A stretch of 64,000 nucleotides of DNA from Picocystis sp. L7. Its lineage: Eukaryota > Chlorophyta > Picocystophyceae > Picocystales > Picocystaceae. The notes below the pieces were generated by a model, which saw nothing but the letters and a program-made list of their open reading frames with translations, made no database searches and was not told the origin of the DNA. Of the stretch, positions 41,057 through 59,374 are shown in pieces. Positions within the stretch are counted from its first letter, which is position 1, and every line of letters begins with the position of its first letter. The stretch is from the NCBI GenBank assembly GCA_020975725.1, contig QXJR01000008.1:682001-746000 (forward strand), written 5' to 3'. A program made the position numbers and the translations under genes.

Positions 41057-41728
41057 CTACCTCATGTTCACTTCAACTGCATCGCGGTACCACCATCGGT
41101 CGTCTTCAAAAATGTATCTACTTCTCTCTTCCATGGCAACAGTTGGAGGTCCCGAAAACTTTTCAAACGTCGCGATAAATGTAACAAAGGCTTCTTTGTC
41201 AGAAGCATTGTCGACCCCAACAGGCATGAACCCTGTGAACTTGACTTGGTCACATATAGCTTTGACTTCCTTTTCGTACTTGCCACTCTTCAAGTCAGGA
41301 TTCATGGGGTGGTTGGTTTTCACCAGAAAATCGGTGCATCCTTTGACATAAGCGGAGTACCTTGCTCGTGCCAGTGTCAATGGGTTGGGCGCCCAAGTCT
41401 GGAATTTGTGCAGTGGTTCGCAGCATTGTCTGTACGTCGCCGATCTACCTTCTCCCCCTCCACATGGACACTTTTCCATCCACCCGTGATTCTCTGGAAG
41501 CCAGAGCGTCTCCTCCGGTCTTTCCCTTCGGTTGTCCATGACGTCTTGCAACCGTGCTCTCGACGTCTCCTTTCTGGACGAGTTTCCATGCCCATCCCCG
41601 TTTTTCTTGTCTTCGCCGAACCCACGTCCACCTCCACTGGATCCTGCACGACATGTTCTCTCCTTTCTCTTCTTCCCTCCATCGATGGAACGAATGGAAG
41701 GTCGATTCCCAAGCGTTGCGACGTGCAT
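41057..41728 (-). CDS. YchJ/UPF0225-like SEC-C and NTF2-fold protein
   Basis: The C-terminal 140 residues match the bacterial YchJ family: a SEC-C-type metal-binding start CPCGGGEG followed by QCCEPLH, then LARARYSAYVKGCTDFLVKTNHP, the NTF2-like domain, and the end FEDDRWWYRDA. Function in bacteria is unknown; SEC-C motifs bind zinc and often nucleoprotein partners. The ATG at 41728 is the first in frame; about 85 residues before the domain are low-complexity and may be an extension or partly noncoding, in which case MEKCPCGG could be the true start. It borders the ATPase array. Confidence 0.75.
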   Translation of the reverse strand: MHVATLGNRPSIRSIDGGKKRKERTCRAGSSGGGRGFGEDKKNGDGHGNSSRKETSRARLQDVMDNRRERPEETLWLPENHGWMEKCPCGGGEGRSATYRQCCEPLHKFQTWAPNPLTLARARYSAYVKGCTDFLVKTNHPMNPDLKSGKYEKEVKAICDQVKFTGFMPVGVDNASDKEAFVTFIATFEKFSGPPTVAMEERSRYIFEDDRWWYRDAVEVNMR

Positions 41729-41846
41729 CTTCCAAGCCGACACCTTCGTCTGAACCCATCCCTCGAGCACGGGTTAACTTCGTAGTTAAACCGAAGGCAG
41801 GGGTCCGAAGGGGGTCCATTTCCCCATCCTCGGGTGGGCAACGGGA

Positions 41847-42568
41847 TCCCCCTTTGTGGGTTCCTTTGGATTGGGGTCGGGTCGCCCCGGTACGGGTGGG
41901 GGTGTGCAGGGTGGACATCCACACCCACCACCTGCTTGGATCCTCCTGCATCCTATCCCATCCATCAAGACCATGGCATTGGATGCATCCTGAAGCGACA
42001 GTGGCACCCACGTCGCATGGAACCAAGCAGGAAGGACGCCAGGGAACATCACCTGGACGCAGGCACAGGCCTGAAATCCACGAAACACCTTGGAAGGGGG
42101 CCGAGGACATCCTTCCCTGTCCTTCGGACGCGTGACCGACCTTCATGCCGTCGATGACAGACCAAACGAGGACAACCGGAGCAATCCAACACCAACTGAA
42201 TGCCAACAGCCTCGGCAACGTCGTCCACACCACAAGACGACGCCGAAAGCGTGTGTGCAGGGTCGCCCATGCAAACCATCGATGAAATGGGCGGTGCGAT
42301 GGGATCCAAGGGCACAGGGCGCAGCTGGCAGGATCTCCCGAGAGCTCTTCAGAGGGGAACGTTCAATATACCGTCCAAGGAGAGGAACCCCCAGGCACTC
42401 GGAGGTTGTCTTTGGATTGGCTTCACCAGGTAGAACGATGAGAACCGCAAAGAAAACATTGAAACTTGCGTTTCAAATTACCGCTACCCTGCCCTCCCCC
42501 TGCCATGCGTTTTGTGTGCTTCTGATGTTCATGGGAATGGGGAGGGGATGTGGGTTGTACATGCACCT
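41847..42568. repeat. R module, copy 1 (empty sites for both insertions)
   Basis: About 720 bp starting CCCCCTTTGTGGGTTCCTTT, lying 3' of ParA-1. It holds the uninterrupted CTGG (42325-42328) and CCT (42566-42568) that are the target sites of the LTR-like and Crypton-like insertions in copy 2. Short frames on both strands are conserved between copies only because the DNA is; no function recognised. Confidence 0.85.
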
Positions 42569-42941
42569 GTTTCCAGGCATCATCACCACCAAACTTTGGC
42601 TGTCATAGTGGGGTGGGTGAACAGCGTAGTGGGGGTCGCTTGTCTTCTGTTTTGGATAATTGGGGGAGGCCCATCATCGCGCATCACAGGGCAGATGGAT
42701 AGAACAAGAACCTCAGAAGGTAGTAACTGGACATCCAAACCAACCGTACCAGTCCAGCAGGATGCGTCGGCAAGACTCTGTGGCAAAAAAAAACAAATCA
42801 CGGAATATGAATAACAGGAGAGATGCGTATGATGTCCAGTTCCGCACGGTAGGCTGAAGACAGTTGTTGTGCTGATACTTGGTAACACAATGAATGGCTA
42901 AAGCTTCGACTGGTGCAAAGGTTTTCAGAACAAGAAACAGG

Positions 42942-44147
42942 TCAGAGCCGCTGAACAACAGCTTCAACTGTCTCTTGGATCACCCGAAGTGTGTCCGTTC
43001 CCACAGGGCCAACGTCGTTGGGGCGGTTCTTCAGCTTGTAGGCTTTATTGGCCACAATGCACACAAAAGGAATTCCGCCAAGGTGACTGATCTTGGTTGC
43101 CAGAGCAGGGAAGTTGTAGAAACAGGTCACGAACCTTGAAGCAAAATCATTTGTACTCTGAATGGACAAATTGTCGTCAAAGAATCGCCTGTAGTCAGTG
43201 CACACGCCCTTGTAGCATCTGTAGTACATATCATCAGAGATCTCCGCCATGTTTTTCTGAACGGCGCTGACAGGGGAGAATGGAAGCGTTGCGTCTTTTC
43301 CCGTCGAGTCCTCGTGAAGCGCCACCTCCTTCTGGTTAAGCTTGTCCACTCGGTTGAACAATACCATGTGTATTCTGCCTGTAAGCATTTCTTGGCTCAA
43401 CTTTGGCAGGGTTGGAAAGAAAGCGTTGACTGGATCATTGTAAAGACGCAAGTAGTCTGACCACTTCTCAGTCACAACTATCACCAAGCGTTTGGCAGCC
43501 AGCAAGGCCACCAAAGATGGGCCTCTTTCGCACAATTCGGCATCGGTGTCGAAGAAAACTACCCAGTCGCCCTTTAATCGAAGCACAGCATCGTGGAGCA
43601 CCCTTCCTGCCTTGATCCAGTCGTCCGTATTTGCTTTCTTGCTCATCTCAATCGCCGTCTGAGGGGGCGGGTCTCCAAAAAGTGGTCGGCTTACCCGTCC
43701 AGTTGGGAGATTTGCACCACCCCCGCTGAGCCACAAGTTCTCAGGCATCTGCTGCTCTTCTTGGCTATAATTAGACACTTGTACACAGTGATTCATGACA
43801 TCTATGTTGCCGTCATCCAGTACCATTCCTCTGAACCTTCCTGTCAAAGAATCGTCGGACACACGGATCTTCAATATTGTCATCAATAGTCCTGCCATGG
43901 TCTGTTCCACGGGTATGGTCTTCAAATTCTGGGAACCAGCCGTGCTTGCAGTTGGTTCCCTCTCGAGAGGTTCCTGCGTCCCCCCAAGCAGGTACTGAGA
44001 CACATCTCCATGGGCACTGCAGTCCAGTACCAACACCTTTTTGTCCGGATTGGCCTTGGCGTAGGCGGTGGCAACTTGAAAGAGACAGAAGGACTTTCCC
44101 GTCCCCCCTCGGTTGTTGACGAAGGCGTAACTGCTCACCACCGGCAT
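42942..44147 (-). CDS. ParA/MinD-like deviant-Walker ATPase, copy 1
   Basis: 401 residues, ATG at 44147. The N-terminus has a deviant Walker A NNRGGTGKS (residues 11-19) and a second motif VLVLDCSAHGDVS (38-50) matching the D-x-D/Q region of the ParA/Soj/MinD family; VVFFDTDAE (Asp near 200) is the Walker B-like site. The first lysine of KGGxGK[ST], which acts across the dimer, is Arg here. In bacteria these ATPases dimerise on DNA or membranes to segregate plasmids or place division sites. The role in this alga is unknown, and a transferred plasmid- or bacterium-derived origin is inferred. The C-terminal half (LLAAKRLVIVVTEKWSDYLRLYNDP and later) matches its paralogues only. Downstream is R copy 1. 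Confidence 0.85.
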   Translation of the reverse strand: MPVVSSYAFVNNRGGTGKSFCLFQVATAYAKANPDKKVLVLDCSAHGDVSQYLLGGTQEPLEREPTASTAGSQNLKTIPVEQTMAGLLMTILKIRVSDDSLTGRFRGMVLDDGNIDVMNHCVQVSNYSQEEQQMPENLWLSGGGANLPTGRVSRPLFGDPPPQTAIEMSKKANTDDWIKAGRVLHDAVLRLKGDWVVFFDTDAELCERGPSLVALLAAKRLVIVVTEKWSDYLRLYNDPVNAFFPTLPKLSQEMLTGRIHMVLFNRVDKLNQKEVALHEDSTGKDATLPFSPVSAVQKNMAEISDDMYYRCYKGVCTDYRRFFDDNLSIQSTNDFASRFVTCFYNFPALATKISHLGGIPFVCIVANKAYKLKNRPNDVGPVGTDTLRVIQETVEAVVQRL

Positions 44148-45079
44148 GGTGAAGGGATCCCTGGGCGAGGTGCAGGCGCACGTCCGCGACAGTCACGTAG
44201 AACTGATGGTACGATCCTCCCCGATCGAATGGATAGGATCGCCTGCACGTGGACACGCCCCATTCGTCTCTCTCGAACGACACAGTTGTGGTTGTGGGGA
44301 ATCCACCTGGAAGGTACCCGCACGTGCATCGTTTCGAAGGAAGCTCCAGGGTCGCATCCGCCCCACACTCTTCCACCCCGGGGTCGATCGTTCTGGGGCG
44401 TGGATAGGAACGAAACCACCTCTTCCATCGTCAGGGGACGTTGTAAGACACCATCCAATGGGAACGAAACCGGGGAGAAGGATCGACCCCGGACTGGAAA
44501 AAGCGTCCCCTTTCGTCCAAACCAGAAGGAAAAAGGACCCCCGAGTCGATCGAAAAGGTACGAACAGACGCGATCCAAGCAGACGTCGAAAGCGGAAAGA
44601 AAGACCCAACCACAGAGTGTGCTTTCCGCGTTTTTCCCTACAAGCACGACCCCGTACTGGCAACAAAGGGACATAAACGTAGGAGGCCAACCACGTACAT
44701 CGATTGGCCACTCCAACTTGGCAAATGTGGCCGGAACAGTGTTCCCTCCTCCGTTGCTCGAAGGAATTGAAACTCATTTGATTCAATCCATGTTGACGCT
44801 TCATGCAGCTATGCGGGCGCTAGAGAAGGTAAAAAACGGGGGGCGTCGAATCGACATGATCATTTCCTGTCCATTTTGACACTTACAACGTGACAGTCAA
44901 CCACATTGTCCTCCAGGGTGAGCCCGAGTCTTCGTGCCTTCGACGCATACTTCGATTCGAATGAAACAATGCCTCTTCGAGCTTCGCACGCATCCATCGA
45001 AATCCGCGGATGCTTCCGTTCCCGAGATCGTTCATTTGGCATACGAAAGGGATGGCCGTCTTATTACAACCTTTTACTG
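44148..45079. repeat. 5' flank of ParA-1, duplicated in unit 2
   Basis: Upstream sequence of ParA-1, repeated almost exactly at 50534-51465; its first 470 bp recur at 53763-54225. Long open frames on both strands arise from the base composition and are not called. A 60-codon minus-strand frame at 44860-45042 (MPNERSRERKHPRI at its start) is kept in both full copies; its reality is doubtful. The promoter of the ParA gene should lie here. Confidence 0.8.
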
Positions 45080-46327
45080 TCCCCCTTTATGGGTTCCTTT
45101 GGATTGGGGTCGGGTCGCCCCGGTACGGGTGGGGGTGTGCAGGGTGGACATCCACACCCACCACCTGCTTGGATCCTCCTGCATCCTATCCCATCCATCA
45201 TGTCCATGGCATTGGATGCATCCTGAAGCGACAGTGGCACTCACGTCGCATGGAACCAAGCAGGAAGGACGCCAGGGAACATCACCTGGACGCAGGCACA
45301 GGCCTGAAATCCACGAAACACCTTGGAAGGGGACCGAGGACATCCTTCCCTGTCCTTCGGACGCGTGACCGACCTTCATGCCGTCGATGGCAGACCAAAC
45401 GAGGACAACCGGAGCAATCCAACACCAACTGAATGCCAACGGCCTCGGCAAGGTCGTCCACACCACAAGACGACGCCGAAAGCGTGTGTGCAGGGTCGCC
45501 CATGCAAACCATCGATGAAGTGGGCGGTGCGATCGGATCCAAGGGCACAGGGCGCAGCTGGTGTAGGCCCCACAGGCCCTATGCATGAGAGGGCCCCTTC
45601 GAACCCCTCTCCAAGTTGGGTCGAGACCTGCTCCGGTCAGGACCCTTGTAGTAAGGGGACTCGCCCCTTACTAAGGGACCTCCCCATCGAGGACTCAAAC
45701 GGAACAGACCGGGATTGAAGGGTTGTGGTGCTTGGAATCCCTTCCCTCAATCCCTTCTAGAAGGTAGGGCTGGGGCAACTCAACGGTGGCGATGCGACGG
45801 ACAGGCCAGGGTCGCTTGGAAACGACCCTTCGGGACCATCCAATGCATCGCCCGCCCCCCACGTGGGCAGTTGGGGAGCCCCGCCAGGCTGTCTTCAACC
45901 ACCCTTGAGCGGTTGAGAGAGAGGTAGACCCCTAGGTCCCTCCCCTTGTCTTTATGGTTCACTTGCTTTTTCTTCGGAAGCGCTACCGCCTTCCCAACGC
46001 CTCCTCCACTTCGCGACCTTCAGACGACGCTCTTTTCGGTGCTGGTGAGACCCTGAGCACGTGCCACATCAGTCGGACGCTACACTGGCAGGATCTCCCG
46101 AGAGCTCTTCAGAGGGGAACGTTCAATATACCGTCCAAGGAGAGGAACTCCCAGGCACTCGGAGGTTGTCTTTGGATTGGCTTCACCAGGTAGAACGATG
46201 AGAACCGCAAAGAAAACATTGAAACTTGCGTTTCAAATTACCGCTACCGTGCCCTCCCCCTGCCATGCGTTTCGTGTGCTTCTGCTGTTCATGGGTATAG
46301 GGAGGGATGTGGGTTGTACATGCACCT
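45080..46327. repeat. R module, copy 2, split by an LTR-like insertion
   Basis: Second R module: 45080-45561 and 46085-46327 are homologous to copy 1, separated by the inserted element at 45562-46084. The right end stops abruptly after GCACCT where the Crypton-like element begins; the homology resumes at 48955. Confidence 0.88.
45562..46084. mobile_element. Solo-LTR-like element, 523 bp
   Basis: Starts TGTAGGCCCC and ends GGACGCTACA, giving TGTAG/CTACA terminal inverted pentamers, and is flanked by CTGG on both sides (45558-45561 and 46085-46088). The uninterrupted CTGG exists in copies 1 and 3 of the module, so borders are exact. TG...CA ends and a 4-bp target duplication are the LTR-retrotransposon signature; no internal region is present, so it reads as a solo LTR, whole as such. 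It is younger than the unit duplication, since copy 3 lacks it. A short TIR transposon is the alternative. Confidence 0.7.
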
Positions 46328-46379
46328 TTCTCCCAACATTTTGTAACCCGGATTCCAAAATCCCCTATTGAATGGCCCG

Positions 46380-46404
46380 TTTTTGTAACGATTCGTTATA
46401 AAAA
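46380..46404. promoter_or_regulatory. Palindromic site 1 of the Crypton-like element
   Basis: TTTTTGTAACG, a 3-base spacer, then CGTTATAAAAA: two inverted 11-base arms with one mismatch. Related sites lie at 46498 and 48914. The layout resembles recombinase or repressor binding sites; function is inferred. Confidence 0.5.
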
Positions 46405-46497
46405 GTTGATTCACGAGGGGATGGATCCCGCCCCATTCTCCCTATCGAAACGACCTCCTTTCCTTTTGTCCGTTTTTCCATCGATCGATGGCTCAAC

Positions 46498-46524
46498 TTT
46501 TTGTAACGAGATCCTTACAAAAAA
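46498..46524. promoter_or_regulatory. Palindromic site 2 of the Crypton-like element
   Basis: TTTTTGTAACG then, after a short spacer, CCTTACAAAAA. It lies about 110 bases before the recombinase start codon, so it could be an operator of that gene. Confidence 0.5.
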
Positions 46525-46620
46525 AGATATCGATCGAATCGATCGAAAATCTCGAGGGCCGAAGGAAAAGGTATCGATGGATCGATCCGGAGGAGGGACC
46601 AAACGAAGTATCCGTTGGCG

Positions 46621-48573
46621 ATGGCGTCGACCGACCTTCCGGAGTCACCGCGTCCGGATGGTGAGCCTCTAAGTATGCAACTTGGCGGTGAAGGTGGACA
46701 ACGACTTCAGCCTTCACTTGTGAGGGAGATCCAACGCAACAGCAAATCCGAAAAGACTCGAAAGGCATATCTTGGAATGAACAAACGATTTGTGGCATGG
46801 GCGGTTGACAACTTCGAAAGCTTATCTTCTTGGCAAAGTAACGGGTTCATAACGGACAACTGGAGAGCATCATTGCAATTGATGGATGAAAAGGAACGCG
46901 TGGCTACAATTAAGAACACTTTGTTGCAGGCAGAAGGGATGGAGGAGAGTGCTCTCACTGACAAGATCAATTTGGATTGCCTTCACTTCCATGCATGGGC
47001 AATGTTCCTTTCGCAACAAAGAAAGCGAGACATTGAAGGTCGAGAAACTTACCTTCGGACTTATGGAAATTATAGAAGTGCATTGAAGCACCTCTATCGT
47101 TGTGCTGATAGCCCTCTTCCCGAATGGTTCAATGAACAAGTAACCGAATATATGAATGCATTGAGAAGGATGTCGGCACAAGAACGAGGAGTCGACCCAA
47201 ATACGACGCATGAAAGGGGGAAAATGGCATTACCATACCAACTCTATTGTGCTATGTCAAAGAAGCTATTGATGGAAGGAGTTTTGGGTGCAATGCTCAT
47301 CCATGTTTTCTCGTGGAATTTGTCATCACGTGCCCATAGCACATGTGGACTCTGCCTTTCTCACTTGCAGCGGGAGAATGACGGTCTAAAAGTGTACATA
47401 CCACATCAGAAAAATGACCAAGATGGTGAGAAACAAGGGAGATTCCCCAAGCATGTTTACTCCAATCCGACCACTCCTGAAATTTGTCCTTTGTTTTGCT
47501 TGTCCGCATACTTGGCATGCCCAGATGTAGGTCAAGATGGCAATGCCATATTTCCCCATGCCAACATCTATGCGGCTCACTCGGCTCACATGGAGCGGTT
47601 CAAGCAGAAAAACAAAGACATGTTGCAATGCTATGGCTTGGAACCAAGTGACATTGGCACCCATTCAAATAGAAAGGGCTCCAGCACATATGTTACTTCC
47701 GGTATCACAAATGGCCCCTCGATGATGAGTATTTGTAACTGTGCCGGTTGGGATACGGGCAAAGTCCTCGGGACGTACCTGCGATACGAATCAGCAGGTG
47801 ATCAGTATATCGGACGGATCGTGGCAGGCCACGCCCCATCAAGTGGTTCCCGATTTGCTCAGTTACCTCCGCATTTCTCACCTGGTGTGGACACCGCCAT
47901 CGTTCGAAGGCTTGCCCGGTTGACCTTCCCGGCATTTGGAAAGACGCTGGCATTAGATGCTGTCCGGGAGCATCTTCTCGCTACTCTGCTGTTTCATGAA
48001 AGTTGGATCCATGAGACCCTTCCTCTTGTCCATCCTTTGCGCAATATCCCTTTGTGGAAGGACAGCAGCAAGGTATGCGCCAAAGAGTTTGTGAGCGCTG
48101 ACTCCAATCGTGACCGATGGGGTAATCACATCAGTCCAACCGGTATTCCAATGAATCTGCACATCCTGAGCCATTGCGAGGATGCTGCAGCAAGCTTGCA
48201 CACACTGAAGGATGACATGCGTGCTGTGGTCCTTCAGTGCATGCAGGAGAGAGACATGCAGTGTGGCAACATCACTCAAGCAACAATCCAAGTAGCTATG
48301 AACGAGATCGTCACTCCGCTGGTCCAACGAATGGACGATCTCGTTCAAGCACGGCAAGCAGAAGGTCTGGTAGAGGCGCACCAGGCCGATGGAGCACTTG
48401 GCCTGCTTCGACTGCCAGCATCATCCATCCAGTTGCCCACGAAGCTGACAGTACGCCAGGCGTGGGTCTCCTACGTTTCAGGTGACCTCCCCTGGATGCG
48501 TTTGAGTACAACCCATGTCAGCAGGAAGCAACGACCACACCTCGCAGACTTACACTACCTGATGAAGGTTTGA
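46621..48573 (+). CDS. Crypton-type tyrosine recombinase
   Basis: 650 residues from the ATG at 46621. The N-terminal half has a helical SAM-like DNA-binding region (SEKTRKAYLGMNKRFVAW). The catalytic set is complete: Arg in LSSRAHST (about 237), Lys in HQKNDQ (264), HxxR in GTHSNRKG (348/351), Trp in CAGWDTG (377) and the nucleophile Tyr in TYLRYES (389). The C-terminal region (VRQAWVSYVSGD onward) resembles the start of the GCR1_C-type DNA-binding domain that closes fungal Cryptons. The frame stops at a TGA (48571-48573) but is open for 70 more codons with helical, basic content, so either the gene recently lost its end or stops here naturally. The catalytic domain looks intact. Confidence 0.85.
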   Translation: MASTDLPESPRPDGEPLSMQLGGEGGQRLQPSLVREIQRNSKSEKTRKAYLGMNKRFVAWAVDNFESLSSWQSNGFITDNWRASLQLMDEKERVATIKNTLLQAEGMEESALTDKINLDCLHFHAWAMFLSQQRKRDIEGRETYLRTYGNYRSALKHLYRCADSPLPEWFNEQVTEYMNALRRMSAQERGVDPNTTHERGKMALPYQLYCAMSKKLLMEGVLGAMLIHVFSWNLSSRAHSTCGLCLSHLQRENDGLKVYIPHQKNDQDGEKQGRFPKHVYSNPTTPEICPLFCLSAYLACPDVGQDGNAIFPHANIYAAHSAHMERFKQKNKDMLQCYGLEPSDIGTHSNRKGSSTYVTSGITNGPSMMSICNCAGWDTGKVLGTYLRYESAGDQYIGRIVAGHAPSSGSRFAQLPPHFSPGVDTAIVRRLARLTFPAFGKTLALDAVREHLLATLLFHESWIHETLPLVHPLRNIPLWKDSSKVCAKEFVSADSNRDRWGNHISPTGIPMNLHILSHCEDAAASLHTLKDDMRAVVLQCMQERDMQCGNITQATIQVAMNEIVTPLVQRMDDLVQARQAEGLVEAHQADGALGLLRLPASSIQLPTKLTVRQAWVSYVSGDLPWMRLSTTHVSRKQRPHLADLHYLMKV

Positions 48574-48783
48574 TTGGACGAGGTCCAGCATCGAGGCGAG
48601 TGGGACGGTCGGTCGATCATTTCTGCACATCGAGCAAACGAGGTGTTCGATCGCATCAAAGACGCAGTGCCACATGCGTCCCGCAACGGTCGCAAGTTAT
48701 CCTTGCGTACGGCTGCCACGTACCTGCGAAAGATTGAGAAAGAACGGGCGGAAGGTGGCGACACCGGCCGAGGACGTGCGTGA
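48574..48783 (+). other. In-frame open extension after the recombinase stop
   Basis: Directly after the recombinase TGA the same frame runs on for 69 codons (VFDRIKDAVPHASRNGRKLS, then TAATYLRKIEKERAE), helical and basic as expected for the end of a DNA-binding domain. It may be the former C-terminus or a region reached by read-through. Confidence 0.4.
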
Positions 48784-48913
48784 CGTCGTCCGTTGCCTGG
48801 ATCGACCGATTGACCTTCCCCTTGGTCCCGAACGTGCAGAGCAGCCTTCGATCAACCGATATCAGCCCTCCCCATCCCCATCGATATCTACGGGTCGAGA
48901 TCCCGATTCAACG

Positions 48914-48938
48914 TTTTGTAACGATATCGTTACAAAAA
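48914..48938. promoter_or_regulatory. Palindromic site 3 of the Crypton-like element
   Basis: TTTTGTAACG, spacer ATAT, CGTTACAAAA: a perfect 10-base inverted repeat only 16 bases inside the right end of the element. The best candidate for a recombinase core site. Confidence 0.6.
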
Positions 48939-49327
48939 CTTGAGGCACTACCCTGTTTCCAGGCATCATCACCACCAAACTTTGGCTGTCATAGTGGGGT
49001 GGGTGAACAGCGTAGTGGGGGTCGCTTGTCTTCTGTTTTGGATAATTGGGGGAGGCCCATCATCGCGCATCACAGGGCAGATGGATAGAACAAGAACCTC
49101 AGAAGGTAGTAACTGGACATCCAAACCAACCGTACCAGTCCAGCAGGATGCGTCGGCAAGACTCTGTGGCAAAAAAAAACAAATCACGGAATATGAATAA
49201 CAGGAGAGATGCGTATGATGTCCAGTTCCGCACGGTAGGCTGAAGACAGATGTTGTGCTGATACTTGGTAACACAATGAATGGCTAAAGCTTCGACTGGT
49301 GCAAAGGTTTTCAGAACAAGAAACAGG

Positions 49328-50533
49328 TCAGAGCCGCTGAACAACAGCTTCAACTGTCTCTTGGATCACCCGAAGTGTGTCCGTTCCCACAGGGCCAACG
49401 TCGTTGGGGCGGTTCTTCAGCTTGTAGGCTTTGTTGGCCACAATGCACACAAAAGGAATTCCGCCAAGGAGACTGATCTTGGTTGCCAGAGCAGGGAAGT
49501 TGTAGAAACAGGTCACGAACCTTGAAGCAAAGTCATTTGTACTCTGAATGGACAAATTGTCGTCAAAGAATCGCCTGTAGTCAGTGCACACGCCCTTGTA
49601 GCATCTGTAGTACATATCATCAGAGATCTCCGCCATGTTTTTCTGAACGGCGCTGACAGGGGAGAATGGAAGCGTTGCGTCTTTTCCCGTCGAGTCCTCG
49701 TGAAGCGCCACCTCCTTCTGGTTAAGCTTGTCCACTCGGTTGAACAATACCATGTGTATTCTGCCTGTAAGCATTTCTTGGCTCAACTTTGGCAGGGTTG
49801 GAAAGAAAGCGTTGACTGGATCATTGTAAAGACGCAAGTAGTCTGACCACTTCTCAGTCACAACTATCACCAAGCGTTTGGCAGCCAGCAAGGCCACCAA
49901 AGATGGGCCTCTTTCGCACAATTCGGCATCGGTGTCGAAGAAAACTACCCAGTCGCCCTTTAATCGAAGCACAGCATCGTGGAGCACCCTTCCTGCCTTG
50001 ATCCAGTCGTCCGTATTTGCTTTCTTGCTCATCTCAATCGCCGTCTGAGGGGGCGGGTCTCCAAAAAGTAGTTGGCTTCCCCGTCCAGTTGGGAGATTTG
50101 CACCGCCCCCGCTGAGCCACAAGTTCTCAGGCATCTGCTGCTCTTCTTGGCTATAATTAGACACTTGTACACAGTGATTCATGACATCTATGTTGCCGTC
50201 ATCCAGTACCATTCCTCTGAACCTTCCTGTCAAAGAATCGTCGGACACACGGATCTTCAATATTGTCATCAATAGTCCTGCCATGGTCTGTTCCACGGGT
50301 ATGGTCTTCAAATTCTGGGAACCAGCCGTGCTTGCAGTTGGTTCCCTCTCGAGAGGTTCCTGCGTCCCCCCAAGCAGGTACTGAGACACATCTCCATGGG
50401 CACTGCAGTCCAGTACCAACACCTTTTTGTCCGGATTGGCCTTGGCGTAGGCGGTGGCAACTTGAAAGAGACAGAAGGACTTTCCCGTCCCCCCTCGGTT
50501 GTTGACGAAGGCGTAACTGCTCACCACCGGCAT
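49328..50533 (-). CDS. ParA/MinD-like deviant-Walker ATPase, copy 2
   Basis: 401 residues, differing from copy 1 at only about four positions: TGRGSQLLFGD for TGRVSRPLFGD, and KISLLGG for KISHLGG. The nucleotide-binding motifs are the same as in copy 1. Its 3' side is separated from its R module by the Crypton-like element. Near identity in both gene and flanks indicates a recent duplication or ongoing gene conversion. Both copies remain open, so selection or recency has kept them intact. Confidence 0.85.
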   Translation of the reverse strand: MPVVSSYAFVNNRGGTGKSFCLFQVATAYAKANPDKKVLVLDCSAHGDVSQYLLGGTQEPLEREPTASTAGSQNLKTIPVEQTMAGLLMTILKIRVSDDSLTGRFRGMVLDDGNIDVMNHCVQVSNYSQEEQQMPENLWLSGGGANLPTGRGSQLLFGDPPPQTAIEMSKKANTDDWIKAGRVLHDAVLRLKGDWVVFFDTDAELCERGPSLVALLAAKRLVIVVTEKWSDYLRLYNDPVNAFFPTLPKLSQEMLTGRIHMVLFNRVDKLNQKEVALHEDSTGKDATLPFSPVSAVQKNMAEISDDMYYRCYKGVCTDYRRFFDDNLSIQSTNDFASRFVTCFYNFPALATKISLLGGIPFVCIVANKAYKLKNRPNDVGPVGTDTLRVIQETVEAVVQRL

Positions 50534-51465
50534 GGTGAAGGGATCCCTGGGCGAGGTGCAGGCGCACGTCCGCGACAGTCACGTAGAACTGATGGTACGA
50601 TCCTCCCCGATCGAATGGATAGGATCGCCTGCACGTGGACACGCCCCATTCGTCTCTCTCGAACGACACAGTTGTGGTTGTGGGGAATCCACCTGGAAGG
50701 TACCCGCACGTGCATCGTTTCGAAGGAAGCTCCAGGGTCGCATCCGCCCCACACTCTTCCACCCCGGGGTCGATCGTTCTGGGGCGTGGATAGGAACGAA
50801 ACCACCTCTTCCATCGTCAGGGGACGTTGTAAGACACCATCCAATGGGAACGAAACCGGGGAGAAGGATCGACCCCGGACTGGAAAAAGCGTCCCCTTTC
50901 GTCCAAACCAGAAGGAAAAAGGACCCCCGAGTCGATCGAAAAGGTACGAACAGACGCGATCCAAGCAGACGTCGAAAGCGGAAAGAAAGACCCAACCACA
51001 GAGTGTGCTTTCCGCGTTTTTCCCTACAAGCACGACCCCGTACTGGCAACAAAGGGACATAAACGTAGGAGGCCAACCACGTACATCGATTGGCCACTCC
51101 AACTTGGCAAATGTGGCCGGAACAGTGTTCCCTCCTCCGTTGCTCGAAGGAATTGAAACTCATTTGATTCAATCCATGTTGACGCTTCATGCAGCTATGC
51201 GGGCGCTAGAGAAGGTAAAAAACGGGGGGCGTCGAATCGACATGATCATTTCCTGTCCATTTTGACACTTACAACGTGACAGTCAACCACATTGTCCTCC
51301 AGGGTGAGCCCGAGTCTTCGTGCCTTCGACGCATACTTCGATTCGAATGAAACAATGCCTCTTCGAGCTTCGCACGCATCCATCGAAATCCGCGGATGCT
51401 TCCGTTCCCGAGATCGTTCATTTGGCATACGAAAGGGATGGCCGTCTTATTACAACCTTTTACTG
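50534..51465. repeat. 5' flank of ParA-2, near-identical to 44148-45079
   Basis: Second copy of the ParA upstream region; no separate gene is supported. The 60-codon frame noted in copy 1 is at 51246-51428. Confidence 0.8.
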
Positions 51466-52018
51466 TCCCCCTTTATGGGTTCCTTTGGATTGGGGTCGGG
51501 TCGCCCCGGTACGGGTGGGGGTGTGCAGGGTGGACATCCACACCCACCACCTGCTTGGATCCTCCTGCATCCTATCCCATCCATCATGTCCATGGCATTG
51601 GATGCATCCTGAAGCGACAGTGGCACTCACGTCGCATGGAACCAAGCAGGAAGGACGCCAGGGAACATCACCTGGACGCAGGCACAGGCCTGAAATCCAC
51701 GAAACACCTTGGAAGGGGACCGAGGACATCCTTCCCTGTCCTTCGGACGCGTGACCGACCTTCATGCCGTCGATGGCAGACCAAACGAGGACAACCGGAG
51801 CAATCCAACACCAACTGAATGCCAACGGCCTCGGCAAGGTCGTCCACACCACAAGACGACGCCGAAAGCGTGTGTGCAGGGTCGCCCATGCAAACCATCG
51901 ATGAAGTGGGCGGTGCGATCGGATCCAAGGGCACAGGGCGCAGCTGGCAGGATCTCCCGAGAGCCTTTCAGAGGGGAACGTTCAATATACCGTCCAAGGA
52001 GAGGAACCCCCAGGCACT
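51466..52018. repeat. R module, copy 3 (without the LTR-like insert)
   Basis: Near-identical to copy 2 up to AACCCCCAGGCACTC, with an uninterrupted CTGG target. After 52018 the sequence no longer matches copies 1 and 2. Confidence 0.85.
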
Positions 52019-52556
52019 CAGTTCTCTTGTTTGGTCAACTGTCGTCAGAAGGAATGTTTTGAAGTTCTGCAGAAGTCATGGAAAAGGGCATTGTGCATCA
52101 ACGCCGCAGCAACAGCCGTTCACCAGTTTAATGTCCCCCCATCCAGGGACGTATGAACGAGGTGCTGGTTTTAAATGCTCCTGCTTCCAGGGATCGTTGC
52201 AGCTTGTCTTTGTTGAGCGGACTGCGATGGCTATGCAATGTACTGCGATTACACATAGCATCTGCGAGAGATGGCGGCGCTCCAGCATCGAGCGCGCCAA
52301 GGCAGACCGGTGGAACAGTATCCAGAGAGAGCAAGAGCTGGACATCCAATTGATCTTTCTTCGTCTGGCAACAAACGCAAGCAGGGTTCTGTAGAATCTG
52401 AAGAAAGAAATTGTGAAAGATGAATGAAGGAAGGGAGATCCATTGGATGTCCAGTTCTGCACGGTGGGCTGTACAGGGTTGCTGTGCTGATACTTGGTAA
52501 CACAATGAATGACTAAAGCTTCGACTGGGGTGACCATTTTCAGAACGCAAAACAGG
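52019..52556. other. Diverged 3' side of ParA-3
   Basis: Only patches match the equivalent region of the other units (for example GCTGATACTTGGTAACACAA at 52484 and TAAAGCTTCGACTGG at 52513). No gene seen. Confidence 0.5.
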
Positions 52557-53762
52557 TCACAGCCGCTGAACAACAGCGTGAATGGTCTCTTGGATCACAC
52601 GAAGCGTGTCCGTTCCCACGGGACCAATGCTTAGATCTCCACAGCTGGATTTATATTGCTTGTTGGGATCAATACAAGCAAATGGAATTCCAAACACCGT
52701 AGTGATCTGAACAGGAACAGCTGGAAAATTATACACAGCGGCAACGTACGCCTTAATGAAGCTTCGTTGACTCTGCACTTCTCCTGATTGAGAAAATAGT
52801 CCTCTGTACTCATTGTTTACACCTCCCCAACACCTGGTGTAGAAATGCTCTGAAATCTCTTCCATATGCTTCTTGCAAGATTGAACCGGCGAAAACGGTA
52901 TAGAAGCAGATTCTCTGCCATTCATGTCCAGCAATATTGAAGGCATTTGCCTGTGTTTTTCCATTTTGTTAAATAAGACCAGCTGGATCGTCCCGATTTT
53001 GGCACCCCTTGTTAACATCCTCAGTGTAGGTAGGAGTGCATTCACTGGGTCACCGAAAACTCTCAAATAATCTACCCAATTGTCGGTCACCACCGTGACT
53101 AACTTTTCGGCAGCCACAATGGCAACCAATGATGGTCCTCTTTCACGTATCTCGGCATCTGTGTCAAAGAAAGCTACCCAATCCTCCTCAACCCTGCCAA
53201 GAGCATTGTTCAGCAGCTTTCCCAATTGAATCCAATCCTTCTCCGCAGACAACCTCGCCAGGCTTTCCTGGGTCCCAGAATCTTCATCTTCAAACAAAAT
53301 TCGACTGGTTCCACCCATTGCAAGTTCTTTGCCACCTGCACACAAAAATAGATTTTCTGGTATATTCTGCATATCCTGACTGTATTCTGCCACCTTGACA
53401 GTATGGTCTCGAACGTCAACACATTCACGGTGCCTGAAAAGCCTGGCCATCATCTCAACAATAGAGGAGTGGGACGTATCATCTCGAAGGAGAGCCAGAA
53501 GGAGTCCTACCATCGTCTGTTCCACGGGTATGGATTTCTTTACTTGTGCGCCAGCCGTGCTTGCGGGTGGTTCCCTCTCGAGGGGTTCCTGCGTCCCCCC
53601 AAGCAGGTACTGAGACACATCTCCATGGGCACTGCAGTCCAGTACCAACACCTTTTTGTCCGGATTGGCCTTGGCGTAGGCGGTGGCAACTTGAAAGAGA
53701 CAGAAGGACTTTCCCGTCCCCCCTCGGTTGTTGACGAAGGCGTAACTGCTCACCACCGGCAT
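52557..53762 (-). CDS. ParA/MinD-like deviant-Walker ATPase, copy 3 (mosaic)
   Basis: 401 residues. The first 65 residues, with RGGTGKS and DCSAHGDVS, are identical to copies 1 and 2, and so is the DNA upstream to 54220. From about residue 65 on the protein is diverged but alignable, with no length change: VAFFDTDAEIRERGPSLVAIVAA and NWVDYLRVFGDPVNALLP against the copy 1 versions. It ends in the shared GPVGTDTLRVIQET with VVQRL. The pattern suggests gene conversion of the 5' half, or purifying selection on the ATP site with diversification elsewhere. Confidence 0.85.
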   Translation of the reverse strand: MPVVSSYAFVNNRGGTGKSFCLFQVATAYAKANPDKKVLVLDCSAHGDVSQYLLGGTQEPLEREPPASTAGAQVKKSIPVEQTMVGLLLALLRDDTSHSSIVEMMARLFRHRECVDVRDHTVKVAEYSQDMQNIPENLFLCAGGKELAMGGTSRILFEDEDSGTQESLARLSAEKDWIQLGKLLNNALGRVEEDWVAFFDTDAEIRERGPSLVAIVAAEKLVTVVTDNWVDYLRVFGDPVNALLPTLRMLTRGAKIGTIQLVLFNKMEKHRQMPSILLDMNGRESASIPFSPVQSCKKHMEEISEHFYTRCWGGVNNEYRGLFSQSGEVQSQRSFIKAYVAAVYNFPAVPVQITTVFGIPFACIDPNKQYKSSCGDLSIGPVGTDTLRVIQETIHAVVQRL

Positions 53763-54225
53763 GGTGAAGGGATCCCTGGGCGAGGTGCAGGCGCACGTCC
53801 GCGACAGTCACGTAGAACTGATGGTACGATCCTCCCCGATCGAATGGATAGGATCGCCTGCACGTGGACACGCCCCATTCGTCTCTCTCGAACGACACAG
53901 TTGTGGTTGTGGGGAATCCACCTGGAAGGTACCCGCACGTGCATCGTTTCGAAGGAAGCTCCAGGGTCGCATCCGCCCCACACTCTTCCACCCCGGGGTC
54001 GATCGTTCTGGGGCGTGGATAGGAACGAAACCACCTCTTCCATCGTCAGGGGACGTTGTAAGACACCATCCAATGGGAACGAAACCGGGGAGAAGGATCG
54101 ACCCCGGACTGGAAAAAGGGTCCCCTTTCGTTCAAACCAGAAGGAAAAAGGACCCCCGAGTCGATCGAAAAGGTACGAACAGACGCGATCCAAGCAGACG
54201 TCGAAAGCGGAAAGAAAGACCAAGC
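53763..54225. repeat. 5' flank of ParA-3, matching the other copies
   Basis: About 460 bp near-identical to the start of the flanks at 44148 and 50534. Homology ends near 54220 at a sharp boundary. Confidence 0.8.
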
Positions 54226-54796
54226 TTCGACACTAGCGTCGGTCCATCAAACAAATCCTGAAGGGTTCAAGAAATGAGTCTTTCACCAGAATGGAAGCCC
54301 GAGAATGGTCGTTTTGTAGTCCAATTTCTGTTGATCATCTTGGTTTGATTGGATGTGCTGCGGTAAAAATATAAAGGTGTGTCCCGAGCCAACATGGACC
54401 GTCGTATCCAAGCCTTTGCAACGCGACAGATCGTTTCCCCGACCAGGAAGCATGGAGGATCCGCAGCCACGGCTCCCGTGTCCTCTTCAGGGTCGGGTCG
54501 ACTGTATACAACTCACCCGAGCACGTCTACAACCACTTGGGTTGGGCATGTGGTTTCCCTTTCTGGACCCAAGGCAATGGGATCTCCTTCTGTTCCTGAC
54601 GGTATCCTGGTTCGGATTCCCTTTCGATCGGGGCAGATGCGGGTCTCATGGAGCCTCATTGGACCCATCGGTCCAGACCCCAAAAACCGACACTTGAATG
54701 CGCATCACCTACCACTGCGCACGTCCAACTGCGTCGCATCTGCCGAGGAAGAAGGAATCCGAAAGACGTCTTGTGGACCGCAAGAGTTCGACAGCC
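54226..54796. other. Intergenic, no gene seen
   Basis: Unique sequence between the end of the array and the ADPRM-like gene. Plus-strand open frames overlap the start of that gene but show no domain. Confidence 0.4.
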
Positions 54797-55699
54797 ATGG
54801 AGAAGGACACAGGAATCCATGGACCGCCCCTCTTTCGATTCGGACTGGTGGCCGACGTGCAGTACGCCGACCGCGAGCCAGACAAAGACGAAAAAGCGAT
54901 CTATTACCGCGAAGCCATTCCCACTCTACGGAAAGCCATCGATGCGTTTGGACAACACAAAGACATACGCAGGGTCGTCCATCTTGGCGACATCATAGAT
55001 GGCAATGTCACGGCCGAGAAAACCCAACAAGACTTCGACGACGTATTGGAGGCGTTCGAGGAATTCGATAGACAAGGCATTCAGGTGTGCCATGTCTTGG
55101 GCAACCATTGTTTCCGCGTGCGACGAGACCTCCTGTTGGAACGCCTGGGATTGGAACAGCAACCGTACTATGCGATGCAGCTGCATGAAGGATGGCGATT
55201 GATTGTCTTGGACACCACGGACCTGTCCCTCTGTGCCTGGCCTGAAGGCTCCTCTGAGTATCAGGAAGCACTGAAGTATGCAGAGGATCGACCGTTGGAA
55301 GATCATCCCGAGATGGTCTCCTGGAATGGTGGCTTACGGGAAGCACAACTGGATTGGTTGAAAGCACAATTGCGGGATGCAGAGAATGCAGGGGAAAAAT
55401 GCATTGTGTGTAGCCACCATCCACTGGCTGCGGGTTGTGCTCGTCCCACGCACATGTGTTGGAATGGCCAGGAAGTTTCGGATATACTTGCATCCAGTCC
55501 CAGTGTTGTGGGTGCTTTCCATGGGCATGACCACCAGGGGGGGTACGCAGAATACAACGGGAAGCACTTCACGACCGTGGAAGCCATAGTGGAGTGTCCG
55601 CCGGATTCTGTTGCGTATGGAATAGTGGATGTTTACCCATCTAGTCTTGTGATTCGTGGTGCAGGTAGGGTGACCAGTAGGAAACTTGATTTTGCTTGA
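54797..55699 (+). CDS. ADPRM: Mn-dependent ADP-ribose/CDP-alcohol diphosphatase (metallophosphoesterase)
   Basis: 300 residues from the ATG at 54797. Calcineurin-like phosphoesterase motifs appear in order: GLVADVQYAD, VVHLGDIIDGN, VLGNHCFR, CSHHPLAAG and GAFHGHDHQGGY, which together bind a two-metal centre. The DVQYAD and NHCFR variants, plus the segment YYAMQLHEGWRLIVLDTTD, are characteristic of the ADPRM subfamily that splits ADP-ribose and CDP-choline. Cytosolic, intact, full length. It is unrelated to the ATPases on either side, so ParA-4 was separated from the array by this gene. Confidence 0.92.
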   Translation: MEKDTGIHGPPLFRFGLVADVQYADREPDKDEKAIYYREAIPTLRKAIDAFGQHKDIRRVVHLGDIIDGNVTAEKTQQDFDDVLEAFEEFDRQGIQVCHVLGNHCFRVRRDLLLERLGLEQQPYYAMQLHEGWRLIVLDTTDLSLCAWPEGSSEYQEALKYAEDRPLEDHPEMVSWNGGLREAQLDWLKAQLRDAENAGEKCIVCSHHPLAAGCARPTHMCWNGQEVSDILASSPSVVGAFHGHDHQGGYAEYNGKHFTTVEAIVECPPDSVAYGIVDVYPSSLVIRGAGRVTSRKLDFA

Positions 55700-55888
55700 G
55701 ATGCCTCTTCTAGGCAGGAATCTTGGGTCAAACGTCGAATAAAGCTGAATTACATCTTTGAAGTTTTATTAGTCGCAAGTCCGTGCCCTTGGATGGCAAA
55801 AACGTGCACGAACAATACACAGGTGGGATTTCGTGGCGACTTCCAGTGGCACGTTTGCATGCCATGGTTGTCTTGCAAACAGTCGTGT

Positions 55889-57094
55889 TTACAGGCGTTT
55901 CACCACAGAATCGACTGTATCACATATTGTCTTGAGTGTCTCTTCGGTGACTGGACCAACCTCCTGCTTTCCCTCGCTTAGTTTGTACTTCATCTTTGCC
56001 TCCATACAAACAAAAGGAGTGCCTTTGAGGACACTGATCTCTTTCGCTACTTCTGGAAAATTGTAGAACGAACAAACGTATCTGTGGGAAAAGTCCCCCT
56101 CGTTGTTGATGTCTTGAGCATCCTTGAAGAGAAGCCTGAAGTTGGAATCCATGTTCTGCCAGCAGTAACCAAACATATGATCGACAATCTCCCCCATATT
56201 CTTCTGTACAACTTTCACTGGTGAGAATGGAAGCTCCGCATCCTTGCTTTGAGCAGCTCCGTGCAGCATAATAGGATTATGATTCAGCTTCCCCACACGA
56301 TTGAAGAGGATCATGTCTACTTTTGCTACCTGATACTTGGTGTTGAAATAAGTAAGCACTGGGAAGAGCGCATTGACTGGATCGTTGTATATACGAAGGT
56401 AATCACGCCAGTTCTCTGACAGGAGCAACACGAGGCTCTTGGCCGCACGCAATGGCACCTGAGAGGCGCCCCTTTCGCTGATTTCGGCATCGGTATCGTA
56501 GAATGCTACCCAATCCTCTGGGAGACTATCCATAGCAGTTGCAAGCAGCTGTCCAGCTTGCGACCAGCTTTTCGTCTGCACTAATCTTGCCAATTCCTTT
56601 GTGACTTCTGTTGGCTCCTGCGCTATGGTCGATGCATTCACTGCTCCCACTGCCAAGGTGGACCCCCCTGCTGCGAGCCACAAGTTTTCTGGCATCTTCT
56701 GCTCTTTTTGGCTGTATTCTGCCACCTTGACGATGTGATCTTTGACGTTTGGGAGAGAGGGCGCATGGAAGAGGTTGCTGAACCTTCTGCTGATGTCCAT
56801 TCCCGAGGGATCGTCCTTGAGTAGGGCTGCGAAGAGCCCAGCAGCCGTTTTCGCCGGCGGTATGGTCTTCATCACTTGCGATCCTGCGGTGGTCGCTTTG
56901 GGTTCGTCTTTCAAAGGTTCTTGAGTCCCACCAAGCACGTATTCGGACACGTCTCCTTGTGTGCTGCAGTCCACAATGAGCACCTGTTTCTCCGGATGGG
57001 CGTGAGCGTACGCGGTGGCCAGCTGGTACAGGCAGAGCGACTTGCCCGTCCCACCTCGGTTGTTCACGAACGCGTAGCTCTTGGCGACGGGCAT
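55889..57094 (-). CDS. ParA/MinD-like deviant-Walker ATPase, copy 4 (diverged)
   Basis: Also exactly 401 residues and alignable throughout with copies 1-3, but diverged across its whole length, including the N-terminus (MPVAKSYAFVNNRGGTGKSL, then VDCSTQGDVSEYVLGG). VAFYDTDAEISERGAS is the Walker B-like segment and the end is GPVTEETLKTICDTVDSVV. Arg again replaces the signature lysine. Its flanks do not match the other units. It is the oldest split in the cluster, and the retained length and motifs argue that all four genes encode working proteins. Confidence 0.85.
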   Translation of the reverse strand: MPVAKSYAFVNNRGGTGKSLCLYQLATAYAHAHPEKQVLIVDCSTQGDVSEYVLGGTQEPLKDEPKATTAGSQVMKTIPPAKTAAGLFAALLKDDPSGMDISRRFSNLFHAPSLPNVKDHIVKVAEYSQKEQKMPENLWLAAGGSTLAVGAVNASTIAQEPTEVTKELARLVQTKSWSQAGQLLATAMDSLPEDWVAFYDTDAEISERGASQVPLRAAKSLVLLLSENWRDYLRIYNDPVNALFPVLTYFNTKYQVAKVDMILFNRVGKLNHNPIMLHGAAQSKDAELPFSPVKVVQKNMGEIVDHMFGYCWQNMDSNFRLLFKDAQDINNEGDFSHRYVCSFYNFPEVAKEISVLKGTPFVCMEAKMKYKLSEGKQEVGPVTEETLKTICDTVDSVVKRL

Positions 57095-57667
57095 CTTGTT
57101 GCTGGTTCACAAGAGGCGCGCGTAGTAGAGGTGCGTGTCCAGTCCGACACGTGCAGTTCTGATGCCTCGATCGACCCTCCTCCTCCATTTGTACCGGTCC
57201 ACCTGCCCCCCCCCAGCATTCCTCGAACGCAATCGACAAGGGAGCGGGAAAACATCGATCGTTCGTGGGGAACAAGGGGGGTTTGGGAACGTATGGCGAC
57301 GAGGACGTCGTGGGGGGGCTTCGTCCCCCCTTCGGATCGGCTTCCCCACGGGTTCGTTCGGGGAAGTGAACCCGGGAAGAGGGTGTTGGGTCCGTTTCAA
57401 ATCCAAGATTGAAAGGGAGGCGAATGGGTTCGTCCTCCGATGGAAAGGAGGATCGGCAGATGACCGTTGGTGGGAAAAGACCGAGAAAAGAACCGACAGG
57501 GTCAGGAATCACGAAGGGACCGAATTTGCGACAGGGATTGGAGACCAGGACCAAGGAAGCACTCCAGATGCATCCAAGCACCTATCCCTCCATCCTTGGG
57601 AAACGAACACCGATGCCCAGGGAGTAGCTTGGATTGGACCAGATGGTTGTGTAGCGAGCAACAAACT
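57095..57667. other. Intergenic, no gene seen
   Basis: Between ParA-4 and the 3' end of the beta-amylase gene, both on the minus strand. G+C-rich frames only; runs of C and G near 57,200 and 57,310. Confidence 0.4.
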
Positions 57668-59374
57668 TTATTCAGGGGAGGATGGGAACTCGATCGCACT
57701 GGCACCACGTGGCAAGGACCTACGGGATAACGCGCGCATCTGGAACTCACCACCCTTGCTCATATCCTGCACAAAGCTCACCCAGACTCCCCACAGAAAT
57801 GGATGAGCAAGTTCGCGAGACAGCCTCAAGAAAGTAAACCCACCCATCGCTGGCAAGTTGTCCCCATCTCGGCTCGCGTGCGTGCTGCAGACGATACGCT
57901 GTAGAGCATTCTTGTTGAACTCGTCTGCACCATGGCAAGGTAATGCATTCTCTCCATGCAGTTGCACTCCTAACAGTGCGCAAATCTTCCTGATGTGAAG
58001 CAACAGAGTCTCTGGCCCGCACCGAGCCAGCGGAGGCTGGGCACTTTCTTCCATCTCAACACATGTGAAGCAAAGTCGCGCGCCATACTTCAAGCACGTA
58101 CGTGCTATCAAGTTGTAGAAGTCGTGTGAATCCATATTGATGTAACCAGCCGTAGACTCTGCCGCATGGCTTGGGTGGTGGTGCCACCAATGAATACCTG
58201 CTAACTTCAAGGTCACGCTCAGCTTCCTCTCTGTCGGGCTACCAAACACCTCTGATGCAGCGCAGAGGAGCCTCTCGCCGTGTTTCAACAGCTCGCTGGA
58301 GTACCAGTTGAGGAAGAACTTGCCGTACTCTGTCTGATACCTACCTCCTACTGACGTGAAGAACCCTGTATGATCGGGGAAGGAATTGTAGCATCCCGCA
58401 TCGTGTGGTCCCCCTTTGCCCCACTCTGGGTGTCCTGCCCTCTTCGCAGCTATCTGCAAGGACTCCAGGGCAAATTTCCCATAGCACATGAACTCTCCGA
58501 TGCCTGGAAATTGCCACCTAGCGCCTTGCATGGGGTAGGAAGGGTATCGCAGCTCACCGCATGGTCCAGCGCCAATCACAGCATCGGTGATCACGTTCCC
58601 GATGAGATCTTCCATGGAGTCTCGAAAAGACACCATGAAGTCTCTGTAGCATTGCATCGGCGATCTACCTTCGAGCATGCCTTCCTTCTCGTCTGCAAAG
58701 AGGGATATACATTCTTTGTTGGCCCAGGACGCAGCTTCCGTGTTGGTGGGACATCTTTCGAGCGGGTACTGCGAGATTTCTGACTTGGTCCTCCGCAGAT
58801 TCGGCCTATCTTTGTAGAGTAGATCCGAGCACCGATCCATGGCGTGTTCCACCCACTTGGGCAGCGGCAAGCAGAAGTTATCGCCAACATTTCCTCCGCA
58901 GGCGTGGAAGCTGAAGACAACGTGCAGTTCCAGTCCTGCGGAGGCCACTTGAGTGGCCAGTTTTCGATAGGGTTCCCAGTCGTATTTCTTGGGAGCATCT
59001 CTTTCCACCACTCCCCACCACACGTCCACCATCACACCTTTGACCCCTGCTTTGCACATCTTCTTCAACAGCTGTTGGAACCACTTTTCCTCCAAGTACT
59101 TGACGGTCCCATCGGGTTGGACGGTGTCCAGTGGCAGCATGACGTGTACGGGCACGCCTTGCGGCTTCCCTTTGTGTCTTTCGGGCAGGAACCTCTCCCA
59201 CATCCATCCACGCATGCCTTTCCCTCTGTGCACGTGGTGGTTCTTCCTCCCATTCCCAGGTACGCTTGCGACGGTTTCTTTGCGGTTGTCGGTCGGATCG
59301 GTCCCAGGGTTCCTTTCGGGTTCGCCTCCTTCTTCCTTTCTTCCTTCCCTCGTCCCTGCTATGCCGCCTAGCAT
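57668..59374 (-). CDS. BAM: Beta-amylase (GH14)
   Basis: 568 residues from the ATG at 59374. GH14 signatures are complete: VPVHVMLPLDTV, GVKGVMVDVWWGVVE, VVFSFHACGGNVGD, the acid catalyst Glu (about 274) in GPCGELRYPSYP, the inner-loop segment KLAGIHWWHHHPSHAAE, and the base Glu (about 475) in HGENALP. The enzyme releases maltose from the non-reducing ends of starch. The N-terminal 80 residues are charged (Glu, Arg, Lys) and do not look like a clear transit peptide, so a cytosolic location, as for floridean starch, is possible. The long in-frame extension has no earlier ATG. Confidence 0.95.
   Translation of the reverse strand: MLGGIAGTREGRKEEGGEPERNPGTDPTDNRKETVASVPGNGRKNHHVHRGKGMRGWMWERFLPERHKGKPQGVPVHVMLPLDTVQPDGTVKYLEEKWFQQLLKKMCKAGVKGVMVDVWWGVVERDAPKKYDWEPYRKLATQVASAGLELHVVFSFHACGGNVGDNFCLPLPKWVEHAMDRCSDLLYKDRPNLRRTKSEISQYPLERCPTNTEAASWANKECISLFADEKEGMLEGRSPMQCYRDFMVSFRDSMEDLIGNVITDAVIGAGPCGELRYPSYPMQGARWQFPGIGEFMCYGKFALESLQIAAKRAGHPEWGKGGPHDAGCYNSFPDHTGFFTSVGGRYQTEYGKFFLNWYSSELLKHGERLLCAASEVFGSPTERKLSVTLKLAGIHWWHHHPSHAAESTAGYINMDSHDFYNLIARTCLKYGARLCFTCVEMEESAQPPLARCGPETLLLHIRKICALLGVQLHGENALPCHGADEFNKNALQRIVCSTHASRDGDNLPAMGGFTFLRLSRELAHPFLWGVWVSFVQDMSKGGEFQMRALSRRSLPRGASAIEFPSSPE

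Follow-up and report, generated by a model that had tools for sequence, protein, structure and literature searches.

Nuclear genes of the green alga Picocystis encode full-length relatives of the lone ParA ATPases of bacterial mobile elements in which arginine replaces the signature lysine

Walker A cytoskeletal ATPases, including ParA, are described as unique to bacteria and archaea in a review (PMC9178275). Table 1 of the same source lists two ParA-fold proteins, BcsQ (RGGVGTT) and McdA (SGGQGKT), in which the signature lysine has been replaced naturally. Another described group consists of the lone ParA proteins of about 350 amino acids (phrog_164 type; "ParA family protein" in NCBI annotation), a broad prokaryotic family encoded on plasmids, prophages, and chromosomes. 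Here we examine four genes (A to D) in a 64,000-nucleotide stretch (the window) of the genome of Picocystis sp. L7 (contig QXJR01000008.1, positions 682,001 to 746,000), each of which encodes a ParA-type ATPase. We consider it probable that these genes are a eukaryotic nuclear branch of the mobile-element lone ParA family that was acquired once, was then duplicated, and would now produce an ATP-switched dimer for positioning or maintenance. No report of a nuclear ParA-type family of this sort was found in the literature, as judged from titles and the openings of abstracts.

All four genes lie on the minus strand, and each is an open frame of exactly 401 codons with a single terminal stop, just as a first-pass annotation of the window had claimed. 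Gene A (42942-44147) carries the P-loop NNRGGTGKS. Gene B (49328-50533) is a recent duplicate of A, with 7 nucleotide differences between the two genes, and gene C (52557-53762) is an old paralogue that nevertheless agrees with A at 185 of 186 nucleotides in codons 1-62. Gene D (55889-57094) represents a third paralogous lineage, and its product is 94% identical to P0005, one of the homologues introduced below. At the protein level, A and C are 56% identical, A and D 50%, and C and D 47%. Homologues from other sources have the same length (401 amino acids in P0001-P0003 and 400 in P0006), and therefore a chance origin of the 401-codon frames is excluded.

Protein searches recovered 15 relatives (P0001-P0015), of which 13 were complete enough to use; the fragments P0004 and P0009 and the incomplete sequences P0020 and P0021 were dropped. 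In all 17 members considered, including those of the window, the signature lysine is replaced by arginine, and we refer to this family as Arg-type. When profiles were aligned with hhalign, the Arg-type family matched the prokaryotic lone ParA proteins over 327 columns (score, 273; probability, 99.9), whereas the alignment to Soj-type ParA covered just 153 columns (score, 111). These profile alignments show homology of the whole protein to the phrog_164-type family. The two families share co-linear, full-length similarity and a P-loop at the extreme N terminus. In contrast, Arg-type proteins (335 to 431 amino acids) differ in the replacement of the signature lysine, in the conversion of PQAN to xxGD and of NPS to DAE, and in the new motifs WxDYxR and LPFSP, and the window genes differ further in their nuclear eukaryotic setting. 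Relative to Soj/ParA partition ATPases, the Arg-type proteins have insertions of about 150 residues, and no ParB was seen among the window frames scanned. The predicted fold is a single ParA-type Rossmann domain with insertions, and McdA is among the structure-search matches listed. The C-terminal two thirds of these proteins had earlier been taken for a private family, an idea that the 327-column alignment overturns. That first interpretation is thus supported in part; its reading of the products as ParA-type ATPases that are none of Get3, NBP35, or MinD holds.

The prokaryotic family is widespread, with 325 relatives in GTDB contigs and 87 in viral contigs. Relatives also occur in 157 plasmid records and 5 phage records, of which 141 and 3, respectively, cover at least 80% of the query. 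We kept 80 of the 325 GTDB relatives and 80 of the 87 viral ones, and among those 80 GTDB loci we dropped the 10 that had no frame of 300 to 450 amino acids. From another locus set, 12 of 30 were dropped because no frame could be used, and two unclassified loci (L155 and L172) were also removed. The 78 prokaryotic sequences, including four re-finds of genes already present (from L152, L154, L156, and L165), were thinned to 21 for hhalign and to 33 for the tree. On a 4.3-kb Proteus plasmid, the lone ParA is one of three annotated proteins and no ParB is listed, although plasmid gene tables are incomplete. Likewise, no ParB-annotated protein lies beside the lone ParA in three plasmid stretches, two of which have unnamed small or helix-turn-helix proteins adjoining. 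For two bacterial lone ParA genes carried by a 4.3-kb and a 7.8-kb plasmid (L173 and L174), no ParB is listed and a resistance gene is nearby.

The 17 Arg-type P-loops read RGGxGK[ST], as NNRGG or SNRGG, and the deviant Walker A sequence KGGxGK[ST] with its signature lysine is not found in the clade. The GK[ST] part of the P-loop and the aspartates of Walker A' and Walker B are intact. The phrog_164 motifs NNKGG and D[LM]CPQAN are also absent, with xSxxGD-type sequences where CPQAN would stand. NNKGG is present in 153 of 155 prokaryotic and viral loci, with one NNKSG and one incomplete sequence; these are counts of loci rather than independent lineages, and many of the 80 viral contigs are near-identical. 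Because loci were partly retrieved by a pattern that includes the signature lysine, a check with a motif outside the P-loop was required, and CPQ[AG]N located these 155 among the 160 GTDB and viral loci. Other substitutions, which bring in new acidic and aromatic residues, have also become fixed across the clade (at least 90%): Asn to Asp48, Asn-Pro-Ser to Asp202-Ala203-Glu204, Glu207-Arg208, Trp229, Asp231, Tyr232, and Arg234. The catalytic Lys18, Asp42, and Asp200 are retained in both the Arg-type and prokaryotic groups. We read this pattern of residues as a site that is rewired yet still able to bind ATP. BcsQ and McdA likewise combine a ParA fold with a natural replacement of the signature lysine, and in BcsQ the replacing residue is also arginine.

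The same homology could accommodate a protein that has lost partition dynamics and instead senses nucleotides or acts as a switch in defence, with altered or lost hydrolysis. The joint loss of Lys13, the PQxN tail of Walker A', and the NPS after Walker B is what such a protein might exhibit, but the retention of Lys18, Asp42, and Asp200 argues otherwise. Furthermore, no described defence family was matched beyond weak P-loop matches of D (PADLOC: AbiO and Nhi, E value of 0.002), and assignment to a known defence system was rejected on this result. We regard a sensor or switch as rather unlikely.

A further alternative is that the genes encode an ATPase of the organelle or iron-sulfur type (MinD, NBP35, or Get3) that has diverged past recognition. 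Membership in the same superfamily, with a common P-loop, is compatible with this idea, as is the Pfam CbiA match of D, which falls at the cut-off (25.5 versus 25.4 bits). However, alignments to the MinD, NBP35/Mrp, Get3, and NifH types end after 38 to 56 columns, with 38 for Get3 and 39 for a profile built from three bacterial proteins of the MinD/FlhG type. This agrees with the original observation that the proteins match none of these families outside the nucleotide-binding motifs. The Get3/ArsA family PF02374 is absent from the Pfam matches of A to D at E values of up to 1, and PF10609 (NBP35/NUBPL), whose cut-off is 27.1 bits, scores 15.0 in both A and B and 13.6 in C, with no match listed in D. 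Moreover, the genome holds separate ArsA/Get3-type genes (contigs C28 and C13) and NBP35-type genes (C16, C18, and C25). The CxxC motif, which binds metal in Get3/ArsA and NBP35, is missing in all 17 members but is equally missing in cut control sequences. Get3 and NBP35 are absent among the best 50 structure-search matches, an outcome that was not used as a test. Overall, an origin of this kind is highly improbable. At C13:383298-385262 (L028/L029) lies an 816-amino-acid open frame with two tandem ArsA/Get3-type ATPase matches.

A tree of 56 rows was constructed from 16 Arg-type sequences (A, C, D, and the 13 usable relatives), 33 prokaryotic lone ParA proteins, and Soj among others; B was omitted as a near-copy. 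The 16 Arg-type rows form a single clade (support, 100/99), which is joined with the 33 prokaryotic rows relative to Soj (100/96). Within the clade, P0006 is placed with A (100/93), P0001 and P0002 with C (100/99), and P0003 and P0005 with D (100/99). Since A, C, and D each group with different rows from outside the window, the three lineages predate the split from those relatives on the tree. P0006, from the MMETSP set of Picocystis salinarum, is 45% identical to C and 46% to D, and its identity to each of the window copies lies well below 60%. We infer that the twelve members from unnamed hosts are algal.

Several features of these data weigh against the interpretation that we favor. The prokaryotic rows form a group of their own (92/77) in which the Arg-type clade is not nested, the Arg-type stem is long (1.25), and long branches are flagged, one of which is the outgroup frame from contig C3. 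For these reasons we claim sisterhood and infer acquisition from bacteria: the tree shows the former rather than nesting, and the direction of transfer and the donor remain presumptive. An organism is named for only one of the 13 usable non-window members (P0006). The P0005 frame remains open for 101 residues further upstream, which we took for untranslated sequence and cut at an inner methionine. When single proteins were compared to phrog_164 by hmmscan, C and D matched over residues 3-69 only (E values of 2.2e-8 and 8.6e-9). No ParB-like match was found by Pfam among 12 other window frames, the rest of the genome not having been searched for ParB; likewise, no partner gene, cargo, or site came to light, none having been sought across the genome. 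The literature searched described no mechanism by which the lone ParA proteins of small plasmids work, and the idea of cargo positioning is extrapolated from ParA. Transcriptome-project support extends to full-length P0006 only and not to genes A to D, and the A/B pair exhibits no constraint, as detailed below.

The window also encodes Rad51, a strawberry-notch helicase, the RNA polymerase III subunit Rpc34, and bromodomain, DDHD, beta-amylase, and asparagine synthase proteins. Because these ordinary eukaryotic host genes share the window, the array is nuclear chromosome DNA, and the eukaryotic nuclear assignment made at first pass is borne out. The array lies on contig C6 (869,720 bp) and was found at one place in the genome only: a search of 20.5 Mb in 30 contigs with C as the query matched the four window genes and no fifth, although genome-wide match counts are lower bounds.

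This setting bears on the possibility that the genes are passengers of some integrated element (a eukaryotic plasmid, a giant virus, or a transposon) whose biology, rather than use by the host, would account for their tandem state. Their prokaryotic kin do reside on plasmids and phages, and the array has been disrupted by insertions. On the other hand, the single genomic place, the host genes on its flanks, and the restriction of a recombinase element to one repeat unit are difficult to reconcile with a passenger origin. No structure match in BFVD was obtained at an E value of 0.001 or below. A viral origin was likewise rejected after two scans of IMG/VR contigs with Arg-type patterns (33 and 17 matches) yielded no relative, and a similar scan of GTDB gave 24 matches and no relative; such short patterns may miss divergent members. 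We judge a passenger origin to be unlikely.

The array is defined by a flanking direct repeat that begins at 41847, 45080, and 51466, with steps of 3,233 bp and then 6,386 bp. Spacings between genes are 6,386 (A to B), 3,229 (B to C), and 3,332 (C to D). Unit A (41847-45079) is 3,233 bp long, and unit B (45080-51465) is 3,153 bp longer because two insertions add 527 and about 2,626 bp. Therefore, the 3.23-kb tandem array of three genes proposed in the first-pass annotation describes the first step but not the second. Units A and B are 99.7% identical across 2,996 bp, and their duplication is recent. Unit C (51466-54221) shares blocks with unit A around a diverged gene body. Positions 51466-52019 are 97.8% identical to unit A, and the tract 53503-54221 (codons 1-86 of C plus 459 bp upstream) aligns with 43888-44606 and 50274-50992 at 97.6% identity in 721 columns. 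At the 3' end of the gene and just past it (52401-52627), identity to unit A is 81.6% over 228 columns. D does not belong to this closely matching repeat (64% across 300 bp).

Gene C differs sharply in its relation to A along its length. Against the single difference in codons 1-62, codons 87-375 share 123 of 289 residues with A, and 195 of 289 third positions differ. Constraint cannot explain the 5' identity of A and C, since D and A differ at 32 of 62 third positions in the first 62 codons. Relative to A, gene C is therefore a mosaic: its 5' match to A can be explained by gene conversion (or through replacement of the body), and its body is that of an old paralogue.

That all copies remain open had been taken to argue for use rather than decay. 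All four are intact, and the old paralogues differ most at third codon positions, with ratios of nonsynonymous to synonymous rates (dN/dS) over the full length of about 0.27 for A and C (converted part included) and 0.19 for A and D; the synonymous rate is near saturation, and the ratio for C and D was not computable. The 7 differing sites of the A/B pair comprise 3 synonymous and 4 nonsynonymous changes and are therefore uninformative on selection. These counts are the one sign of a clade that is decaying and without protein function. Opposed to decay are the length of 400 to 401 amino acids kept in 8 members, the GGxGK core kept in 17 of 17, the third-position bias and dN/dS of 0.2 to 0.3 among old paralogues, and the full-length P0006 from what we take to be a transcriptome project. 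Decay is thus very unlikely.

If the genes are indeed a nuclear branch of the lone ParA family, a single entry into the algal lineage from a plasmid or prophage source would have been followed by at least two duplications. The product may be a sandwich dimer, switched by ATP and located in the cytosol or nucleus, in which Arg13 assumes the trans contact of the signature lysine. ATP-bound dimers would bind a matrix (DNA or membrane) and ADP-bound monomers would diffuse, and this cycle would position a cargo or maintain an element. The three paralogues, whose P-loops are nearly identical and whose bodies differ, might serve different partners. The P-loop arginine sits at residue 4-24 across members (P0005 being counted from its inner methionine), and hence neither a transit peptide nor an N-terminal helix-turn-helix is obvious in any of them. 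Overall charge was rejected as a guide to DNA binding, the isoelectric points being uninformative (5.2-7.7 in 17 members, a median of 7.55 in 74 prokaryotic proteins, and 4.7-9.0 in four Soj proteins). A more ambitious and only tentative possibility is a eukaryote-specific ParA-type system, in which an alga would have domesticated a ParA from a plasmid or prophage, rebuilt the active site around arginine, and come to use the paralogues as a machine for partition or positioning in the nucleus or cytosol. If so, a class that the review (PMC9178275) restricts to bacteria and archaea would extend beyond them. A full-length nuclear ParA relative with its class-defining residue changed throughout the clade amounts to a natural experiment on the role of the signature lysine, and with a relative in a green-alga set (Picocystis), it offers a testable case of a eukaryote using a bacterial mobile-element partition protein.

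The larger insertion in unit B (46325-48954, plus strand, about 2.63 kb) contains a tyrosine-recombinase-like open reading frame (46615-48573; Pfam Phage_int_SAM_4, 22.6 bits, below the cut-off of 27), and we presume that it is Crypton-like. A copy on contig C21 matches it at 98.7% identity, and the element has 55 genome-wide matches, including fragments; contigs C26 and C24 carry it in head-to-tail arrays of about 2.62 kb and 2.64 kb, respectively. The smaller insertion (45562-46084, 523 bp) has a 4-bp target duplication (CTGG) and ends TGTAG...CTACA, resembling a small terminal-inverted-repeat element, and it had no match among the loci examined. A YchJ-like frame (41057-41770, minus strand; PF17775) adjoins unit A, and a calcineurin-like phosphoesterase (metallophosphatase) frame (54698-55699, plus strand) lies between C and D. 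No RNA family reached its gathering score in positions 40000-60000 of the window.

Elsewhere in the genome, a second ParA-type frame (L034 751-1914, minus strand, at C3:508484) has canonical KGGVGKTT and DADPQAN motifs, matches PF13614 at 94 bits, and occupies a very long branch of the tree. A separate 61,624-bp contig (C30) holds a 300-amino-acid P-loop frame that we take to be ChlL-like, which fits a plastid genome. Of two contig ends (L054 and L055), that of C6 is a subtelomere-like tandem repeat closing with GGTTTTAGGGTT, and the start of C26 carries another tandem repeat.
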